Source: Apiotrichum sp. Y4204
Taxonomy: Eukaryota; Basidiomycota; Tremellomycetes; Trichosporonales; Trichosporonaceae
NCBI GenBank assembly: GCA_025531455.1
Contig: JAMYHL010000103.1
Location: 52,676 to 116,675, forward strand
Direction of reading: 5' to 3'
DNA length: 64,000 nt
Shown here: piece by piece, positions 1 to 36,571 of the stretch
How positions within the stretch are numbered: the stretch's first letter is position 1
Layout of the letters: each line of letters begins with the position of its first letter
Program-made: the position numbers and the translations under genes
The notes under the pieces: model-generated
Seen by the model: only the letters and a program-made list of their open reading frames with translations
What the model was told of the DNA's origin: nothing
Databases searched by the model: none

Positions 1-2625
1 CGGTCACTCGGCTCCTTGATGTACTGCTCGCATTGCTTTGCTTCGCCGCGGTCCTTGCACGGCGTACACGGCCAGAGGCGGTCACACTACTGTCAGCAAT
101 GTCAAGCAAAGAGACGAGGCGACGGGCTCATGCACAGGGGCACTGGACCCCCCGCAGCGGGGCTCGTGCGGCGGCGTGACCGCGGTGTCAGGCGGGGGAA
201 GCACAACGCACCTTGGTCTTACGTCGACGACATGCTGGGAGTGTCAGCTGCTAGATCAAGCTGTTGCATTGCTGGGCCGGCTGTGTCTTGAACAAGAGCA
301 GGGTGTGATTCCATCTCGGTTGATGGTCGGCAACCACTCCCGCTCCCTGGCGGGCCCCACAGTGACTCAGTTACTCACCACTGCAGTTCTGGACGGATTT
401 GGCCTTGCGCAGCGCGTTGCCCGTGCCGAGCGTAAAGCTGAACGGGGCGATGGGCTGCGGAATGGTCGGCGGACGAGATGTGACAGTGTTGGATGAGGAA
501 ACGCAGCAACAGCGAGTAGGTGGTAAGCGAGCAACGAGGATGGGAGATGCGAGGATCCAGAAGTGGCCGCAGTGTCAGCAATCAACGACGGGCACGGCGT
601 CGACGTACGGGGAACACCGATGGTGCAGACGACATGTGCGCGGAGGATGCGAGGTGAGTAAAGGCGAGTGGGTGGTGGTGAGACGGAATGTGATGCCGCG
701 ATGGCGAGGATGATGTCGGTGAGTCGCTTCGGTGCGCGATGCGTTACGATGACGATGGAAAGAGGACTAAGGTTTTGTTTCGGAGTGGATGGAGGTATGC
801 CGAGGAGAGGGCGGAGATGGGTGGGGAGGTGGATGAAGAGGGGAATGAGGATGAGGGGGGTGTCGGTGTCGACGGCGACGACGGGGTTGATGGTGAGAAA
901 GAGAGAGAGACAAGAGAGATGGATGGATGGAAAGAAAGAGGAGGAGATGGAGAGATGGCGATGGGAGATGAAAGACACAATCCTGTCGGTCAAATTACAA
1001 ACAACATTCATTGCAATTATCCATCCCTTCTCGATCCTTCCCATCTCCCGCAGAATGATATGCATGCGATCTTGTCATCGTCGCCATCATCATCACCATC
1101 ATCACCCTCACTCTGCGCTTCCTCCCGCTCCGAGCGTTCCCCATGCGCTAGCCCGGCAACGGAACGACAACCGGCGCGGCCCTCGCCACCACCACAAATC
1201 GCACTCCTCGGTCTCTTCAGATCTACTCTGCTCTGCTCGTTGCTTCTCATACCTTCTTCTCAGAGTTAATCCCTCACTTCTCACAAACTCTGCACAACAC
1301 GGCACGCGAAACTGTAGATAGGAAGCGAGAGCCCAGGGTCCACAACCGAGACACCTCGCCCAAGTCCGTAACCCAGGACCCGGGACCCGCGACTTCCATT
1401 CTCTCCCTCCGTGCCCACAGACCCACAAACCCACAGACCAACAGGTCCACAGCCCATCCCCGGACATGCATGGCGCCCCGCGGTCCGCCGCGCGCCGCGC
1501 GCTAGCTTGCCCCGTTAGTCACTCTCCGTCCGCCGCGATCGCAATCGGTGTGCGGGGAGGTGAGTCGTGAATCTAGAGTCTAGAGTCGTGATCGGGCCGG
1601 GATTCTCATTTCCGCGGTCCGGTGGGGGGCATCCCTGCGGGGAATGGTGTGGGTGGCGGAAATCGCTGGAAAGTCGATATCCACACTACTAACAGAAGTC
1701 ACTGCCTTGGCACGTCGTTTGTCAGCGTGCCCTGGGGCTGTGGCGGCCATGTCTGATGGCGTGCTCAAACCGCCGCACATGGCGACACACGAGGTGTCGC
1801 AGCGCGCAGTGGGTTCGTTCCATGGATCCATGGGCCGTGGGCGTCACACATTGGTGGCGTAGGCAGCGACGCAGGCACACCAATTGCGGGAGCGCCGCCA
1901 GTAACCAGTCAACCGGGGGATTGATCACGCGCCACCGGTCACCGCGCCGTCAGTCGCGAGTCACGATGCAAAACGTCCACCCGCTGGGCGCTGCCGCACC
2001 CCGAGACCATACGTAGCGCCGAGACGGGGTGCTGGTTGGTTGCTGCTGATTGCGGCCGCGTGCTCGCCACGCTGCGTGAGGTGCGGGTCATCCTGGTGCT
2101 GTGAGGCGGACTGCGACGGAGTGAGCTGAGTGAACTGCGGCGGTCGGCTCGCCACTGGCCAATCGCGCGCACACAGGCGGCACTGACTCTGTGTACTGTA
2201 TCAATCAGGCACCTGTCGAGCACGGACAGTGGGGAACAGCTGGTCTCGGTCTCAGACTGGTCGAGTCTGGTTGCTCTGGCTCTGTGCACCTAGATGTATA
2301 TAGCATTGACACATTCACTGACCTTTGCAGCCTTGAAGTCATGAGTTTGAGCCGCTGTTACGTTGCGACACTCACTGTGCCGGTCCCTGAGGGTTTGTTT
2401 CGCCTTGATGACGGCGCACATTCTTATCTCCCATCGCCTTTTGCCATCTCATCTTGAACCCATTCACTCACCGCGCTACACTCCTACTGCATCTTAATCG
2501 ATCTCCCGCATACCGCGCTAACTGACGGTGACGAGTGCACTGACCACTGCAGGAACCCCGCACTTACTCATACGGTCTCCGAGGTGGGCTAGCCGGACTC
2601 CGGGTTTACACCCCGCATAAACCGA
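1..2625. other. Gene-free 5' stretch
   Basis: I see no gene that I can support here. Open frames of up to about 230 codons exist on both strands, but they are low-complexity and unlike any family I know, as expected in GC-rich DNA. A purine-rich (GA) tract lies at about 890-965 and a TCA/TCC-rich tract at about 1074-1110. The segment probably holds intergenic DNA and the promoter of the aldehyde dehydrogenase that follows. Confidence 0.5.
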
Positions 2626-2644
2626 GATATAAATATATATATAT
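2626..2644 (+). promoter_or_regulatory. TATA-like AT tract upstream of ALDH gene
   Basis: A GATATAAATATATATATAT-like stretch stands out in otherwise GC-rich DNA about 70-90 bases before the ATG at 2714. That is where other genes in this window carry TATA-like boxes. Confidence 0.5.
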
Positions 2645-2713
2645 CGACCACGGCCCTCATCACCACCAGCCTCGAAAGTAACCCAACAGCTCACACAGTC
2701 CACATCCCACACC

Positions 2714-4385
2714 ATGGGCCGCACCCTCTCCGCGCTCGTGCGCAACCTCGTCCCGCGCCCGTCGGCGTCCCCCGCGACATTCGCCATTTCCCACCCGTCA
2801 AAAGGCGTCGTGCACAGCGTGGAACGGAGCACCCCCGCAGACGTCACATCCGCGCTGGACTCTCTTTCTTCCGGCCTGCAAAAGTGGAAAGCTACGCCGC
2901 TTGCAGAGCGCGCGGCAGTGTTCTCGCGCGCGGCGGAGATCCTCTCTGATGAATCCTCGGGGTGGGCGGCGAAGCTTGTCGAGAGCAACATGGCGGAAAC
3001 GAGCGTCACAAAGTGGTGGTCTGCTGCGCAGATCGGCATGGCGACGGGCGCACTGCGTACCCTGGCTGGAAGTGCGGAGGCAGCGCTGAAAGAGGAGGAG
3101 GTCGCGCTCGAGCATGGTGCGTGGTCCATGGAAGTTATGACTGACGCCAGGGACTGTGACGATTGGCCGCGAGCCGTACGGAGTCTGTCTTGCTATTGCC
3201 GCGTGGAATGCTGTGAGTCCAGCTATGACGTCGGATGTGTGGCGAGCTCTTTCCATCTATTCCCCACTCTCGTTCCGCCTCAGTCTGACCCCCAGGTCCA
3301 CGTCCTGACCGTGCGCGCCATCGCGACACCGCTCCTGGCGGGCAACACGGTCGTGCTCAAGACCTCGGAAACCGCCCCGGGATCGCAGGCACTCTGGGCC
3401 GAGCTCCTGTACGCCGCCGGCCTCCCGCGCGACGCGCTCTGTGTGCTGCACGTGTGTCCCGCCGACGCCGCCGAGCTCACCACCCTCCTCGTCTCGGATA
3501 CGCGCGTGCGGCACGTAAACTTTACGGGCAGCACGCGCGTCGGGTCGATTATTGCGTCTCTTGCGGGAAAACACCTCAAGCCGACACTTATGGAGCTCGG
3601 GGGAAAAGCACCAGTCATCCTCCTCCCCGACGCGGACCTCGACACGGCCGCCTCGCACCGTAAGCCTAACCCCATTTTCCCCATTAATGCTAGTCATCTT
3701 CGGGGCGTTCATGAACGCCGGCCAGATCTGCATGTCGACGGAACGCATCCTCGTCCCCGCCTCGAAGCGGGACGCGCTGCTTGCCGCCCTCGCGCGCGCA
3801 TGGGAAGCAGTCGAGGCACAGCCCCGCGCGCTCTTCACCCCCGCCTCGGGGGAGCGCGTGCGCTCTCTCATCGCCCAGGCCGTTGGCGCCGGCGCGTCCC
3901 CCGTCCTCGGGCTGCGGAAGGACGCCGACGCTTTTGTGACACCCACGATGCTTGCGGACGTTACCCCCGACATGCAGCTCTACGGCGACGAGTCGTTCGG
4001 CCCGTTGGCGGCGATTGTCTCCGTTCCCGACGCGGACGAGGCGGCGCTCATTGACGAGATGGTCCGTATCGCGAATGACACGCCGTATGGTCTCGCTGCC
4101 GCTGTATGGGGCCGGGACGTAGAGCGCGCGACGGCCGTCGCGAAGCGGATCGAGGCGGGCGCAGTGCACGTCAATGCGCCGACGCCGGCGGACCCGCCGA
4201 CCGTGCCCCATGGCGGGTGGAAGTCGTCGGGCTGGGGAAGGTTTAATGGCGTCGAGGGGCTGCGGTCGTTTACCCAGGTAAGATACAGGCAAGGGGAGGG
4301 GTAAGGCGGATTCTGATGACAGACGCGCTCGATCGAGGTCGTCAAGGACCCGCACGCGCTCCCGCTCAACATCTTTGAGCTGTGA
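2714..4385 (+). CDS. Aldehyde dehydrogenase, salicylaldehyde/vanillin dehydrogenase-like
   Basis: Predicted to oxidize an aromatic aldehyde (salicylaldehyde- or vanillin-type) to the acid with NAD(P)+. Exons I read: 2714-3116, 3151-3212, 3296-3659, 3694-4277 and 4323-4385, giving 491 residues, the usual ALDH length. Visible motifs are the WNA oxyanion-hole Asn (N154), LKTSE (K177), FTGSTRVG (about 231-238), the ELGGK general base (E255) and the GQIC catalytic cysteine (C289). There is no clear targeting peptide. Acceptor 3295 was chosen because it keeps the WNA-to-RA spacing of the family. Two introns are exactly 34 nt. A salicylate-hydroxylase-like gene lies 3.5 kb downstream on the same strand, which supports a role in aromatic catabolism. 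The exact substrate is inferred; the ALDH assignment is secure. Confidence 0.9.
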
Positions 4386-4776
4386 TTGATCAAATCGGGT
4401 GTGCCGCTGGCGGTGCGCGCAGCGGTTCTATGTAGCCTTATCCGTAGTTCCGTGTTTGCGCGTGAATGGATGTGGTGGTCACTGACCAACTCTACTATCC
4501 ACGCGAAACGTGAAGCACCAAGTGAGCACAACCCACGTCAAAGGGATAACAACCACACCCTCTGACCCAACTTGGCCACTGTGCAGCATAAACCAACACC
4601 TGTACTGCAGGAATAACATAACATCGCTTTCCTATCATTTACGTTACTCCAGATAATTTAAAACTAGTTCCACAGGCCAGTCTTCCCGTGGCTCCTTACG
4701 CCAGAGGCCCTATCTCAGCGGAGGCGGTCCAGCCTTAGTGTCTGGCTCATGCACGGCTTCGCGCCCCAGGACCAGT
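4386..4776. other. Convergent 3' intergenic region
   Basis: This lies between the 3' ends of the ALDH gene and the minus-strand peptide gene. It contains an AT-richer patch at about 4600-4670 that could hold polyadenylation signals for both genes. No other feature is visible. Confidence 0.4.
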
Positions 4777-5111
4777 TCAGGCTTCAGCCTCGCGCTTCCA
4801 GCACACGGGGTTGTGGCCGCCGCCGCAGCCGCCGCCGCCGAAGCCGGGCTCAGCCTCAGCCTCTGGCTCGGGCTCGGGAACCGGCTCAGGCTCGGCTTCA
4901 GCCTCGCGCTTCCAGCACACGGGGTTGTGGCCGCCGCCGCAGCCGCCGCCGCCGAAGCCGGGCTCAGCCTCAGCGAGGGCGTCGCGCTCCTCGTTGTCTG
5001 GTGTCAGTGGCTGGATAGGAGTGGATAGGTGCTACTGCTAAAGACAAACGTACGAGCAGGAGCGGCAATAGCCAGAGCAATGAGGGAGGTGAGGATGAGG
5101 GCGAGCTTCAT
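4777..5111 (-). CDS. Secreted Kex2-processed repeat peptide precursor
   Basis: Two exons, 5111-5054 and 4997-4777, with a 56-nt intron (GTACGT donor, CTGAC branch point, CAG acceptor), encode 92 residues. Residues 1-19 are a textbook signal peptide (MKLALILTSLIALAIAAPA). The rest holds two identical copies of GFGGGGCGGGHNPVCW (33-48 and 71-86), each followed by KR (49-50, 87-88) and EAEA. The 20 residues between the copies (51-70) consist entirely of X-Ala or X-Pro dipeptides (EA, EP, VP). This is the layout of ascomycete alpha-factor-type precursors: Kex2 cuts after KR, a Ste13-type dipeptidyl aminopeptidase trims EA/EP, and a carboxypeptidase removes KR. The two cysteines could form a disulfide. 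Known basidiomycete mating pheromones are instead farnesylated CaaX peptides, so the function is open: signalling peptide, RiPP core or Qsp1-like quorum peptide. Secretion and processing are inferred from sequence alone. Confidence 0.8.
4780..4974 (-). repeat. Two identical 81-bp direct copies inside the peptide gene
   Basis: Bases 4780-4860 and 4894-4974 are identical. They encode the two peptide modules with their flanking KREAEA and AEAEP residues. A 33-bp linker between them encodes further Glu-Pro/Val-Pro/Glu-Ala dipeptides. Perfect identity implies recent duplication or gene conversion. Confidence 0.95.
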
Positions 5112-5216
5112 TGTGAGGTTTCGAAGTAGGTATGTGAGGTATTGAGCGCGAGATGCTTGGATCGCTGCGACTGGGTAGAATGGAGCCTGGGGATAAGAGA
5201 TGGGTCGTATGCCGCC

Positions 5217-5225
5217 CCTTTTATC
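5217..5225 (-). promoter_or_regulatory. TATA-like box of the peptide gene
   Basis: On the minus strand the sequence reads GATAAAAGG, about 106-114 bases upstream of the ATG at 5111. Position and composition fit a TATA element for the secreted-peptide gene. Confidence 0.45.
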
Positions 5226-5546
5226 TCTCCTCGGTCGTTGGAGTGTAGCGCTTGTACATCAGACCTTGTTGGTCGCCCCAGCCTGGAGCATCAGACTTGG
5301 AGACAGGCAGCGCAGCTGGGTTCACCTCGCCGAAGCCTCCCAGAACACCCACCGTCGCCAGCTCATACAGATCTCGTCGGTGAGGTAACCGTCAATGTCA
5401 TCGTATCTCGATCCGCGTTCGAGGGTCACTTGGGATCTTGGGTTTACTTCCGATGCCGTACAGGTAAAGGAACGACTGGCAGCACATGTACTGTAAACCC
5501 AAAGCTGCACCGAGCGCCAGCGACGCAACGCTGTTCGAGATCCCCG

Positions 5547-5818
5547 ACTCGTAACCCAAACCATACAGTATGGCATCCGGATCTGAGGTTCTGGCACGGA
5601 CGAGTGGGAGCTGGGAGACGGGGCTGACGGCTCTCGAGATGTCCCACTCGTAATTTGCACCCTAAAGTATGACCTTCGGATCTGACGGCTTGAACAAACG
5701 AAGGCCGCATGCGAGCTGGGAGCTGGAAGCTCGGAGCTGGAAGTTGCTTCCGGCGATATCGCTCCTCAAGATGCTTTCTCGTAACCTGAACCCTCCAGTA
5801 TGTCAATCGGATCTGAGG
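5547..5818. repeat. Three degenerate ~42-bp direct repeats
   Basis: Copies begin at about 5547, 5646 and 5777. Each starts with CTCGTAA, continues through an ACC-rich segment to AGTATG, and ends near TCGGATCTGAGG. Spacing is 99 and 131 bases. They may be remnants of a duplicated element or reiterated protein-binding sites; no coding frame runs across them. Confidence 0.6.
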
Positions 5819-6825
5819 CCCTTGGATAACTGAAAGGTGAGGGCGCGGACTGCAGGGTCGATCATCACTCAAGATCATTCATGAGTCATCAAACAGTCGA
5901 TAAGGCTTCAGAGATCTGTCTCCTAGCGGAGACTTTCGGTTTCCGCTCGGAGACTTGTGCCTCGTTCCTCGTTCCACTCCCACAAGGTCACAAACGGGGG
6001 TTGAAGTGGTCAGGCATGACAGAAATCGGCAACCCCGCATGTCAGAAGACTACGCGGATCCCAGGATTGTGACGTCGATGTGGAGTCGGGTACCGTCAGC
6101 GACAGAGGCATGGCCAATGGGGAAGATAGTCGGCGGGACGGGGGTAGCTGGCAATACATGCAGCACAAACCCGTGGTACCAGGCCATCGATGACCCACTG
6201 CGCTCCCTCGACATCTCCCCAACGCATACGAGAGCCGTTCCTCACGAACGTAGCGGAGGATTGGCCGGGACTGGCTTTTCAGGTTACAGCCTCAGTGGGA
6301 TAAACTGCGAGCTTTAAAGCTACCGCCGGAGATGGGTCATCGAGTGGGCCAGAACCCCGGAGATACGGTCTTCAAGCTGTGATGAGCGACAAGTAGCTGG
6401 GCGTAGAAGGGCACGTTTGAGGCTCGCGGCACGAGGGACTGTCGGGGCCGCGTGTCCTTTGTATTTTCGATCGAACGCAGTATCGCTCTCGTCCCGTCTC
6501 CTAGCTGCTGCGATCCTTGAAGATGGGGGGAATATGCCCTTGTTTATCGACCTCGTCAGTCGTGATCAGAAGTAAAATTCCGTTTGGGGTAGAAGTGTCA
6601 GTGTCATAGGTCGGAGGGTCCCAACGGCCTTCAGAGCCTGAAATCCGGTAAAGTGTCCGGGCCGGAACGCCGACAGCGTCAGTAATCAGTACTCTCTTGC
6701 AGAGTCGGCTTGTTTGCAGTATCTGAGACTTTGTTACAAGGGTCGCTAGTGACACAAGCCGCGACTGACCGAGACGCGCTTATCCTACCACGAGGCGCGA
6801 CGCGTCTGTCTGGAGTTGTTTATCC

Positions 6826-7080
6826 TTGGACATCAGATTTCCGCGATACGCCGCACTTTTGCGCGCCCTCGAGCTGATGGCCAAACGTGCGGGCCGCAGC
6901 GGCGTCTTGTAAAGACTTATCCATGAATTATCTCGGTCATGAATAAACGCAGCAGGCCACCATCCACGTAAGAGAACGAGATGCAAATGAACCAAGTGAA
7001 CCAAAGTATCACAGAACAAGCGATATCCTGGTAGCTCGAACGACGCGTCCAGTTGGACATTAGATTTCCGCGATACGCCG
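6826..7080. repeat. 28-bp direct repeat pair
   Basis: Bases 6826-6853 and 7053-7080 match at 27 of 28 positions (TTGGACAT, then AGATTTCCGCGATACGCCG). Each copy is preceded by a CGACGCGTC-like motif. No transposase frame is present, so the origin is unknown. Confidence 0.7.
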
Positions 7081-7892
7081 TCCCGAATCACACCATTCAG
7101 GTGATAACGGCCCGGATGCCACGGCCGCACGGCATGGAGCACGTAGGGAGATTGGAGAACGGGCGGATGGAGGATGGAGGATGGAGGATGTAGCGGAGTG
7201 CGGAGTGTGATTGTTTGTGTCGGTAGGAGATTGTACCGCACGTATTGTTTGGTGGGTCGTCTTCCTGGCTGGGGCCGGAAGATCCGGGGCCGGTTGGCTT
7301 ACTGCATGGGACTGGTGAAGCCGGCGCCGGGTATGCCGCCATACACCCAGGCCCTCGGTCTCGCTTCAGCGGCAACCTTCTAGGACACCGAGCTGGGAGC
7401 CAGGGCAGTACAGTGTGTGGCCATGCGTACAAGGGCCATGCAGGGGGGTGGGCAATGCATACAGAAAGTCAGCTGAGACTGTGGTCATGCGCGGGTTCGG
7501 GTGGGCTGGTCTGGTATGGTGCATGAAATTAGCCGCACTGCGAGCCACGAGAGTTGCCGACAGCAAAGGCCAAAGGTGTCACGGGGTCGACGGACGTTAG
7601 ATGGCCGCTCACCGCGGTCGTCATGCTCTGAACACATGCATGTTCCCAGTTCGCTAGCAGCCGTGCAGCTCGAGCTGAGCCAGCAGAGAGTCTCCGCCGC
7701 CCGGAACACGCACGCGGGACATGTTGCGCGGGGCTCTGCACCGAGGCTGTGAGCCGTGAGATTACTTCATATACCCAGCAGGTGACTCTTGTCATTCCCA
7801 TCATCCACACCTCCTCCAGCTTCTTCAGCTTCCACCTCGACGAAGACTCTACCGACTCTAGACACTGCAGAACCAGACTACATCAATTCACT

Positions 7893-9369
7893 ATGGCGCC
7901 TCCTCTTTCTGATCTCGCAATCCACATTATCGGTGCCGGGTGAGTAGAGATGCGCGGGATGTGGGGAGAATGTGATCCCACCGCCCGGAGCAGCAGCCAC
8001 CATCACAAGAAACCTTGCTAACATGCAGAATGGGCGGCATGGGCTCGGCGGTCTCGTTCGCCAAGCAGGGCTTTACGAACATCCACGTGTGGGAGGCCGC
8101 CCCCGCCATCGGCGAGGTCGGCGCGGGTATCAACATCCCGCCCAACCTTGCGCGTGTGCTCGACAACTGGGGCGTGCTCGACGTGTGTGCCGGCGAGGGC
8201 GTGGACATTACCACTGCCAACGTGCTTGGTGAGTAGCCCGCGCGAGGCCAGCGAGCTTGGTATCAGAATCCAGAGCTGACTCCTCAGACTGTGCTACCGA
8301 CAAAATCCTCACGAGCGTGTCGTACAAGGGCTACATGAAGGAGAACTACGGATACCCGTTTACGACTGTGCACCGTGCGGCGCTGCAGAAGTGCCTCATT
8401 GTGGGTGCTGAGCGCTCGGGCGTCGTCAAGCTTCACCTCGGCAACTTTATCACCGAGTACGACTTTGACAAGACGCGGTTCCAGGTCAAGGACCGGACAA
8501 CGAACGAGATGCAGTGGATCCAGGCGGACGTGATCATTGCTGCCGACGGCGTCAAGTCCAAGGCCCGCGAGGCAATGTATGCCCGCACGGGAATCAAGGA
8601 CGAGGTGGAGGACACTGGCCAGGCCGCATACCGTATCATGGTGCGCCGCTCCGCGATCAACGAGGACCCCGAGCTCGTCCCCTTCTTCACCGGCACGCAG
8701 AGCTACCGCTGGGTCGGCGCGCGCCGTCACATTATCGCGTACCCGATCGAGAAGGGCGACCTGTTCAACATGAGCACGACGCAGCCCGACCGCCGCTTCG
8801 TCCAGGCCGACACGTGGACCGCCGTTGGATCCAAGGACGAGATGCTCAAGACGTTCCACGACTTTTGCCCGCGTGTCCAGAAGCTCCTCAACCTCGTCCC
8901 CGAGGGCGAGGTCCTCGAGTGGAAGCTCCGCGTGCACAAGCCCCTCCCCCAGTGGGTGGACGGCAACGCCGCGCTCGTCGGCGACGCATGCCACCCCACG
9001 CTCCCGCACATTGCCCAGGGCGCCGCGCAGGCCATTGAGGATGCCGCGTGCCTCGGCGTCGTGCTCTCCAAGATCACCTCCAAGGACGAGATTCACGCCG
9101 CCCTCGAGGTGTACCAGCGCATCCGCAAGCCGCGCACCGACTGGGCCGTCATGACCGCCGCGGAGAACAGCAAGGGTCTGCTCACCGAGGACCGCGAGTC
9201 GGTCCTCGCCGCGTTCCAGTCGGCCAACGAGGGCGCCAACCCCGACAAGATGATCTCGCGCGAAGTCCACGACAAGCTCTTCCTGTACGACGTGACCAAG
9301 GAGTCGGAGAAGGCGTTCGACGCCCTCTTCCGCGAAGAGAAGGCCAAGGCCCCCGCTGCCCGCATGTGA
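7893..9369 (+). CDS. FAD-dependent aromatic monooxygenase, salicylate hydroxylase-like
   Basis: Exons 7893-7939, 8029-8228 and 8288-9369 give 442 residues, the usual length for fungal salicylate hydroxylases. Residues 14-19 (GAGMGG) are the N-terminal FAD Rossmann motif, D169-G170 lie in the DG motif (AADGVKS) and G314-D315 in the GD motif (ALVGDACHPTLPHIAQGA), which identifies a class A flavoprotein hydroxylase. The expected reaction is NAD(P)H- and O2-dependent decarboxylative hydroxylation of salicylate to catechol in the cytosol. Related enzymes act on 3- or 4-hydroxybenzoate or hydroxynicotinate, so the substrate is inferred, helped by the aldehyde dehydrogenase upstream and the intradiol dioxygenase at 49.6 kb. 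The first intron interrupts the GxGxxG motif, a placement that makes the N-terminus reliable. Confidence 0.88.
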
Positions 9370-10014
9370 GAGAGCCGAGTGTGTGATAGAGCGCGGGAGG
9401 ACGTTGTGTATAACCTGGATCAGTATCATTCATCGTAGTTTCTGTTCGTTGGGCATTGGATTGTATGCAATACTAGCATGCGAGAGAAGGAGCACAGAGT
9501 ACTGTACAAGGAGAGCGCGAGGCGGTCTATGGCACGCACGCACTCGACTGTGTGCACATGCGAATAGGCCAGACAGGAGACGAGACAAAAATCACACACG
9601 TACAGGCAAAGTGTGCCAGTCGTGGCCTTTATGTTCAAACATGTTCCAATCTGCAACGCTCTTGCGACCTCTTCCTCCGGACTCCTCCGGCAGCCCCCAT
9701 GCCGATATCATAGATTGGATCTCTTATGATCTCTCCCAATGAGCACATGCACAGAGTGTCCCAGTCGCAGAATCACAATGCCGAAGAGGCAACTGGCAGC
9801 GGACAGCGTTATCACGGCATCATCGCCACGATACTCAATCAGCGCGGGCCATCGCCTGTCCCTCGTCCCTCGGTGTTGTCGTCGTCACATCCTCGTCTTA
9901 TCCGAGCACGCGAGCACAATATTCTCCAGAAATCCAGAACTCCATCTTTTCTTTGTATCTCTATAATGTACATGTACAAATCCGCACGATGTCGCCCGGT
10001 CCCGCCAACCCGCG
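9370..10014. other. Intergenic region, nothing recognised
   Basis: This holds the 3' end of the monooxygenase gene and the promoter of the F-box-like gene at 10015. I see no further gene or repeat. A short AT-rich patch at about 9940-9980 may be core promoter. Confidence 0.4.
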
Positions 10015-34700: not shown

Positions 34701-36571
34701 ATGTGGGCCCCTCTCACCGCCCTCACCGTCCTCGCGCTGGCGGGTCTCGGCTCCGCGCAGCCAGGCCCGATGCGCCAGCCACCCGGCTTCCGTGCCCGCA
34801 GCGAGGAAGCCCTTCGCGAGCGTCGCGCCTTTGAGGAAAAGCACCAGCTTGCGGCCCGGTGGAACGACAAGAACGAGTCCAAGCCCGAAAAGACAAAGTA
34901 CCAGTTCCGCAACAAGAAGACTGAGAGTGAGTTGATTGCATGAAAGCTGCGGCTGACGGCAGAATTCCTCGTCAAGAAGCTCCCCGAGGTCAACTTCAAC
35001 TTTGGCGAGCTGTACTCTGGCAGCCTCGAGGTGGACCCGCAAAACAAGACGGAAGGCTCGCTCTTCTTCTACTTTGCGCCCCGCAGCGGCGGCGAGCCGG
35101 TCGAGGAGATTACAATCTGGCTGAATGGTGGACCGGGATGCAGCTCGGCCAACGCGTTCTGGCAGGAGAACGGGCCCATCAGCTGGATGCCCGGTACGTT
35201 TGCGCCAAAGTCCAACCCGTACGCGTGGTCGACGCGGACCAACATGCTCTGGTGAGTAACTGACTCTGAGGAATGCTCACCTCCCAGGGTCGACCAGCCG
35301 ATTGGCACGGGCTTCTCGGTCGGCAAGCCGTACGCCACCTCAGAGGACGACATTACAGCCCCGTTCCTCAAGTGGTTCAAGCGCTGGCAGGAGGCGTTTG
35401 GCGTCAAGAACTACAAGATCTACATCACCGGCGAGTCGTACGCCGGCCGCTATGTGCCGTACATTGGTGCAGCGATGGTAGATGCCAACAACACGGAGCA
35501 CTTTGATCTCAATGGTGAGCTGTCCGCAATGCGCATGCCCTAACCGCAGGCATCATCGTCTACGACCCTTGCATCGGCGAGTACAACAGTGTACAGGAGG
35601 AGATCCCCGCCGTGCCCTTCGTTGAGGCCAACATGAACCTCTTCGGTTTCAACGAGTCGTACATGGAGGACATCCGGGGTCGCCACAAGTCGTGCGGCTA
35701 TGCAGACTTCCTCGACAAGTACCTCGTCTTCCCGCCCTCCGGCGTCCAGCCCCCTACTAGCTTTGACGCCAGCAACCCCAAGATGGACGCCAACAACCAG
35801 TCGTGCGACCTTTTCAGCGACATCTACACCGTTGCCTTCAGCGTCAACCCCTGCTTCAACCCTTACGAGGTCGTGAGTAAACTCTGATAAGCTCGTCGCT
35901 CACCACAGAACATGATGTGCCCCCTCCCGTCCGACTCGCTCGGCTTCCCCGGTGCCTTCATCTACTCTGACCCCGGAAACCCGCCGTACTTTGACCGCAA
36001 GGACGTCAAGAAGGCGCTGCACGCGCCCGACCTCAAGTGGGCGCTGTGTTCCGTCGAGCCCGTGTTCCTCGGTAAGGGCGGTCCGCAGTTCAACGGCGAC
36101 AACTCGCCCGACCCGATCCAGCACGTCCTCCCCAAGGTCATCGAGAAGACGAACCGCGTGCTCGTGGCGAACGGCGACTTTGACTATATCATCATCACGA
36201 ACGGCACGCTGCTCGCGATCCAGAACATGACGTGGAACGGGCAGCTCGGCTTCCAGTCCGCCCCGAGCACGCCGTTTATCGTTTCCGAGCCCGACATCGA
36301 GTGGACCCCAGTCTTCAAGGCCAACGAGATGGAGGGCCTCAACGGACCGCAGGGCCACATGGGAACGTACCACCACGAGCGCGGCCTCATGTGGGTCCAG
36401 ACCTTTATGGCCGGCCACATGGTCCCCGAGTACCAGCCGCGCGCGGCCCTGCTCAACCTCGAGTGGATGCTAGGCCGCGTCGAGTCGTTCGACGGCGGGA
36501 TGGGCGGAAACGGGACGAATGCGACCACCACCATGAACCAGATGCTCAAGGCTCATCGTGCGCCGCTGTGA
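34701..36571 (+). CDS. Secreted serine carboxypeptidase (peptidase S10)
   Basis: Exons 34701-34926, 34963-35251, 35288-35514, 35550-35872 and 35909-36571 encode 575 residues. An N-terminal signal peptide (MWAPLTALTVLALAGLGSAQ) is followed by a charged pro-like segment. The S10 signatures are WLNGGPGCSS (oxyanion region), GESYAGRY with nucleophile S222, GDFDY with D447 and AGHMVP with H525. There is no C-terminal membrane anchor, so it differs from Kex1 and should be secreted or vacuolar, removing C-terminal residues from peptides. Several N-x-S/T glycosylation sites are present. All four introns are 35-36 nt. A carboxypeptidase could in principle trim basic residues from Kex2-cut peptides such as the one at 4.8 kb, but nothing here shows that it does. 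Confidence 0.92.

Follow-up and report, generated by a model that had tools for sequence, protein, structure and literature searches.

A small gene in the window, the whole 64,000-nucleotide stretch of DNA analysed here, appears to encode a secreted alpha-pheromone-like KEX2-processed repeat protein (KEP), the precursor of a disulfide-capable 16-mer that probably serves as an extracellular signal outside mating. We put the probability of this reading at roughly 0.6. The gene is one of at least 12 loci, in at least six precursor families, that occur in the genome in two homeologous sets.

Results

The preliminary description placed a gene at 5111-4777 on the minus strand, and these coordinates proved exact. 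Judged by its sequence, this single gene is real and well formed, with two exons and a product of 92 residues after splicing. The precursor is laid out as MKLALILTSLIALAIAAPAHNEERDALAEAEP-GFGGGGCGGGHNPVCW-KR-EAEAEPEPVPEPEPEAEAEP-GFGGGGCGGGHNPVCW-KR-EAEA, and its features are the following:

4777..5111, minus strand: whole gene, alpha-pheromone-like KEP precursor of 92 aa, two exons (gene model)
5054..5111, minus strand: exon 1, 58 nt, ATG and hydrophobic signal-like N-terminus MKLALILTSLIALAIAAPA (signal peptide by eye)
4998..5053, minus strand: intron, 56 nt, GTACGT...CACCAG (pair at equal spacing in the C106 homeolog)
4777..4997, minus strand: exon 2, with pro-segment HNEER-DALAEAEP, two cores, two KR, spacer, EAEA tail and TGA
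4912..4959, minus strand: core 1, GFGGGGCGGGHNPVCW
4906..4911, minus strand: KR processing site 1 (predicted)
4846..4905, minus strand: spacer EAEAEPEPVPEPEPEAEAEP, ten consecutive X-A/X-P dipeptides, Ste13-type substrate
4798..4845, minus strand: core 2, identical to core 1
4792..4797, minus strand: KR processing site 2 (predicted)
4779-4777, minus strand: stop codon TGA
4780..4860, unstranded: 81-bp exact direct repeat, copy 1
4894..4974, unstranded: 81-bp exact direct repeat, copy 2

The N-terminus is hydrophobic and ends in A-I-A, as judged by eye, and Pfam returned no family above the cut-off for this protein or for the related precursor on contig C139. Each of the two identical cores is followed by KR, the arrangement of a repeated-core KEP, and the dipeptides after KR are of the STE13-type form X-A or X-P, with ten in succession after the first KR and two after the second. 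Counted from KR, the ten Ala or Pro among the 20 spacer residues are all in phase, at every second position; residues in random order would show this once in 184,756 (about 5e-6), in a post hoc test that was run after the pattern had been noticed. The protein ends in KREAEA, so it carries no C-terminal CaaX motif. Its Gly-rich core includes two Cys and one His but no Tyr, a residue that dikaritin cores, to our knowledge, contain. The calculated [M+H]+ of the 16-mer is 1459.563 with the disulfide and 1461.579 in the reduced form.

The two-module layout, KR sites, EAEA and identical 81-bp repeats reported in the preliminary description were all borne out by the window sequence; the homeolog on contig C106 retains both cores and both KR sites, and the further paralogous families repeat the layout. 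Its assignment of a Kex2/Ste13-type architecture agrees with the KR sites, the X-A/X-P dipeptides and the KEX2-type and STE13-type protease genes of the genome. The clean intron held in part: the 56-nt GT-AG pair recurs in C106, where GTACGT and CACCAG are likewise 56 nt apart, but alternative GT-AG pairs, present here and in C106, would preserve the frame of the two cores as well. We prefer the GTACGT...CACCAG intron because its donor site, GTACGT, looks better.

Among the window ORFs scanned (at least 200 aa), the neighbours were an aldehyde dehydrogenase (2633-4304) and, beyond 8 kb, FAD-binding proteins; no peptide-modification gene cluster was found among these ORFs. Upstream of the gene, three degenerate 52-nt direct repeats lie at 5535-5816 with start-to-start distances of 99 and 131 nt, and related repeats with a spacing of 133-135 nt lie upstream of the C106 homeolog (L006 3733-4041). 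These repeats could be a conserved promoter element.

The genome searches covered the window's own assembly (48.9 Mb, 182 contigs). Window positions 273-9537 are collinear with C106 across 9.6 kb at 87.8% identity, identity between homeologs is about 82-94% in the main blocks that surround the other five families and in the STE3 regions, and KEX2-type, STE13-type and STE3 genes are present in two copies each. This duplicated, collinear gene set fits a hybrid genome. A phenol hydroxylase of the genome aligns to PDB 1PN0 over 653 residues with 1197 bits and to 1FOH with 1180 bits; we take both structures to be phenol hydroxylases from Trichosporon cutaneum, and on this basis tentatively place the genome in the Trichosporonales. 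The basidiomycete origin that had seemed apparent in the preliminary description is supported, short of proof. Hybrids with two subgenomes are on record in the Trichosporonales, as described in PMC6730849.

Precursors were sought with a DNA pattern and with five members as a protein query. Nine of the loci are intact, one is cut by a contig end and two are decayed; family and locus counts are lower bounds because the search scores only the best candidates. Family A consists of the window gene (contig C6) and the C106 homeolog, which carries QHGFGGGGCGGGHNPVCW twice and keeps the frame, both cores and both KR sites; the sequence suggests that the C106 gene has lost one repeat copy. Past its stop codon, at L006 4911-4947, a degraded third core can be read as GFRGGGCSRVCW. 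One of the six families, B, encodes two different peptides on a single precursor, with three copies of NSGWGQGGCGGHACW and two of DSWGRGPCSGEACW on C139. The two alternate along that precursor (L007), and the C94 homeolog, which carries DSWGRGPCSGEACW three times and DSWGRPPCSGEACW once, has only the second of the two C139 types. Family C has five copies of QWGAGTCSGKACW on C152, where the 3' end is uncertain because the frame continues for 37 residues past the last KR, and four copies of QWGAGTCGGKACW on C20 before the contig ends. Both family D precursors, on C153 and C57, have one LCRGTQCW-KR and finish, at the stop codon, with QWGSGGCGGNACW or QWGTGDCSRNACW (the family was modelled as intronless; C153 also permits one intron). 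No residue separates the CW of this last core from the stop codon, an arrangement that independently marks where the mature peptide ends. Two of the six families have a decayed homeolog: family E, with a single RWGGGCGGQPCW on C102 and a partner on C10 that was matched in two frames and has lost the Trp of CW, and family F, with three copies of QWGGFGGGQRDPQW, which has no Cys, on C102 and a partner on C1 with a stop within the core.

Of the 33 KR sites in the ten modelled members, 28 come immediately after the end of a core, which is CW in 25 cases and QW in 3. For 26 of 28 cores, X-A/X-P dipeptides alone make up the stretch that separates the core from the preceding KR, ER or SR (6 of these stretches are empty); both exceptions belong to family D, and the two LCRGTQCW cores of that family were not counted. 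The spacer phase test is stronger than this count because core starts were partly chosen by the X-A/X-P rule. Between homeologs, the family A core has no amino-acid change in 32 codons, with only 2 synonymous changes, whereas in families B, C and D the cores change at least as much in amino acids as the spacers do. In family C the same Ser/Gly change is present in 4 of 4 aligned cores. Purifying selection would fit the family A core but not those of B, C and D, in a comparison built on too few changes.

We looked for a shared promoter element in 7 gene groups, counting an 8-mer for a two-member group only if both members had it; none occurred in more than 3 groups. Within 600 nt upstream, 8 of 10 precursors had no ACAAAG box and the other 2, both of family D, had one each; the promoters of the two CaaX ORFs had two each. 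Pheromone co-regulation of the precursors was considered and is unsupported by the 8-mer and ACAAAG counts.

The KEX2-type gene encodes a proprotein convertase, with subtilase and P-domain seen in the C114 copy, and the STE13-like gene encodes a DPP IV-type protease whose open frame in the C153 copy starts with a membrane-anchor-like stretch. On C153 and C57 alike, about 69 kb separate this STE13-like gene from the precursor of family D. KEX1 is a member of the Peptidase_S10 family, and a serine carboxypeptidase exon of this family, of KEX1 or vacuolar type, is found at window positions 35891-36571.

A PF02076 profile search of the genome found two STE3 genes, on contigs C13 and C51. By the same method STE2 (PF02116) gave no match in the genome, in a search for which no control genome held the family. 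We scanned about 19.5 kb around each STE3 for short CaaX-type ORFs and obtained six matches. One pair, a few kb from STE3 and ending in YGSCTIA, is identical on both STE3 contigs, and we infer that it is a mating pheromone. This CaaX-type ORF near both STE3 copies upholds the separation of CaaX mating pheromones from the window gene made in the preliminary description. The two STE3 regions (L028 and L030), both homeologs, encode the identical peptide, so a single pheromone allele may be shared by the two subgenomes.

A chimeric query matched the database protein P0003, named a clock-controlled pheromone, at 1.7e-7, partly through architecture, and also P0004, P0005 and P0007, which have a like layout. 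From these four proteins we picked seven ascomycete-type cores as the permutation reference; only P0003 is named a pheromone. Against this reference the window core scored no better than its own shuffles (p = 0.257, or 0.755 with the last two residues fixed in the shuffles). With full shuffles, 5 of 11 cores gave p < 0.05, uncorrected for the 11 cores: E (0.003), D1 (0.014), C (0.028), B2 (0.034) and the C. oleaginosus core. Fixing those two terminal residues left E as the 1 of 11 that passed, again uncorrected. The resemblance to ascomycete cores is weak and would be mostly due to the terminal CW, which is all that the window core has of the WCXXGXXCW consensus (quoted in PMC3068285). Core homology to ascomycete alpha-pheromones was considered and is not claimed, given a hit from a chimeric query and weak permutation results. 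Two further database proteins, P0002 and P0006, in entries without a signal peptide, have a core-KK-dipeptide layout (QSGGFGGCGGWGSPACW-KK twice) and a core-KR-dipeptide layout (QGFGGCGGWGGGPQCW-KR twice), respectively. KR with EA/SA-type dipeptides also occurs in seemingly unrelated database proteins (P0008-P0011, P0013), so architecture alone is no proof of descent. The window precursor is alpha-factor-like in build; its identity as an alpha-pheromone is not claimed.

Discussion

We propose that in the Golgi a KEX2-type convertase would cut the precursor after KR, and perhaps also at the mono-Arg site NEER in the pro-segment, with cleavage at ER and SR in precursors that have these sites. 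A Kex1-type carboxypeptidase would then trim KR, and the STE13-like enzyme would strip DALAEAEP and the spacer. Two copies of GFGGGGCGGGHNPVCW would be released, probably closed by a C7-C15 disulfide. More tentatively, we suggest that the peptide may work outside the cell as a self-made signal unrelated to mating, because the lineage appears to rely on STE3 with a CaaX pheromone for mating and the search for STE2 gave no match. Together, the six precursor families would yield several related ligands. A wider reading is more doubtful than not: that the related Trp-ending peptides of the six families, one of which has two different ligands on one precursor, form a multi-ligand peptide-hormone system based on alpha-factor machinery, self-sensed via a non-STE2 receptor and serving a non-mating process.

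The peptides could instead be true alpha-type mating pheromones, retained or acquired, that work with a divergent receptor beside CaaX and STE3. Their precursor architecture is identical in type to that of ascomycete alpha-pheromones, the chimeric query led to P0003, the clock-controlled pheromone, and to P0004, P0005 and P0007, and cores E, D1, C and B2 resemble ascomycete cores beyond composition before correction. We consider this quite unlikely, as the window core fails the permutation and only E passes with the last two residues fixed, STE2 had no match in the genome (in a search with no control), a CaaX-type ORF lies near both STE3 copies, and none of the 12 loci found is on the STE3 contigs C13 or C51. 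A secreted antimicrobial, metal-binding or competitor-directed peptide, made by a producer without a receptor, is somewhat unlikely. Judged by eye, the window peptide is nearly uncharged and not amphipathic, and the family A core is unchanged in 32 codons, over only 2 synonymous changes; yet such a function would suit a Gly-rich core that has one His and two Cys, a genome with several diversified peptides, cores in families B, C and D that are conserved no better than their spacers, and the role towards the biotic environment that Vogt 2022 proposes for KEPs (PMC9769878).

Uptake by an oligopeptide transporter, as in a Qsp1-type quorum-sensing peptide, is unlikely. Cryptococcus would stand in the same fungal class if the Trichosporonales placement is right, and Qsp1 works after Opt1 import, not on a surface receptor, but it is matured outside the cell by Pqp1 (PMC5959073, PMC7537855). 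The Qsp1 likeness drawn in the preliminary description holds for a Gly-rich peptide with a terminal Trp (NFGAPGGAYPW), and no sequence relation beyond Gly and Trp was seen. The RiPP core proposed there is unsupported, and a dikaritin-type core cyclised by UstYa (DUF3328) oxidases seems very improbable: ustiloxin-type precursors share the KEP architecture (PMC7329392), but the core has no Tyr, the genome gave no DUF3328/UstYa match (in a search with no control), and none was seen among the 39 window ORFs scanned, out of 62 listed with at least 200 aa.

A secreted, probably non-mating signal peptide is the reading we retain, and six families in homeologous pairs, with cores of known mass, provide named peptides to seek and named genes to delete. 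The preliminary description had called the peptide new. The kind is already known, because alpha-pheromone-like or STE13-type KEPs are described by Le Marquer 2019, Umemura 2020 and Vogt 2022, and a two-Cys, CW-ending KEP with a STE13 signature had been reported in Trichosporon oleaginosus (PMC6339444). With this kind on record since 2019, what is added is a rich set of paralogues, with at least six families side by side in a single genome. According to Umemura 2020, Tremellomycetes average 1.00 KEP per strain, against which six families would be many, with the proviso that methods differ; the same report gives a KEP type common to Yarrowia and Cutaneotrichosporon that is annotated as fungal pheromone (PMC7329392). 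In the text of the open-licence literature, supplements excluded, five cores of this genome had no match, the C. oleaginosus core matched PMC6339444 alone, and no multi-family precursor set of this sort was found. Vogt 2022 reports that alpha-pheromone-like KEPs are processed in mushrooms, that Trp-ending peptides of STE13-type KEPs are detected in Pleurotus and that C. cinerea kep knockouts have no detectable phenotype (PMC9769878); in the parts of the literature covered, we found no demonstrated signalling role for such KEPs in a basidiomycete.

The window precursor shares with ascomycete CCG-4/Ppg1-type precursors a signal-like N-terminus, repeated cores, KR, X-A/X-P spacers and a CW end, and differs from them in a core without WCxxGxxCW, in a genome where no STE2 was found and a CaaX-type pheromone lies near STE3. 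With the alpha-pheromone-like KEPs of Agaricomycetes, for which processing has been shown, it has STE13-type spacers and Trp-ending peptides in common, whereas the Agaricomycete peptides reported are short and without Cys, for example SGVAADW (PMC9769878). Cryptococcus Qsp1 is likewise a Gly-rich secreted peptide with a Trp end but has no Cys, is matured by Pqp1 and imported by Opt1, and has no demonstrated sequence relation to the window peptide. A close counterpart is that of Trichosporon (Cutaneotrichosporon) oleaginosus, a KEP with QSWGGCGGRGTPCW that Le Marquer 2019 likened to Sordariomycete pheromones and proposed to act outside mating, raising the question of alpha-type secreted peptides in basidiomycetes and of what would sense them (PMC6339444). 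The two agree in two Cys, Gly-rich core, CW end and KEX2 and STE13 signatures, and also in order if the Trichosporonales placement holds; the cores differ, and where one such protein is reported there, the present genome holds at least six families.
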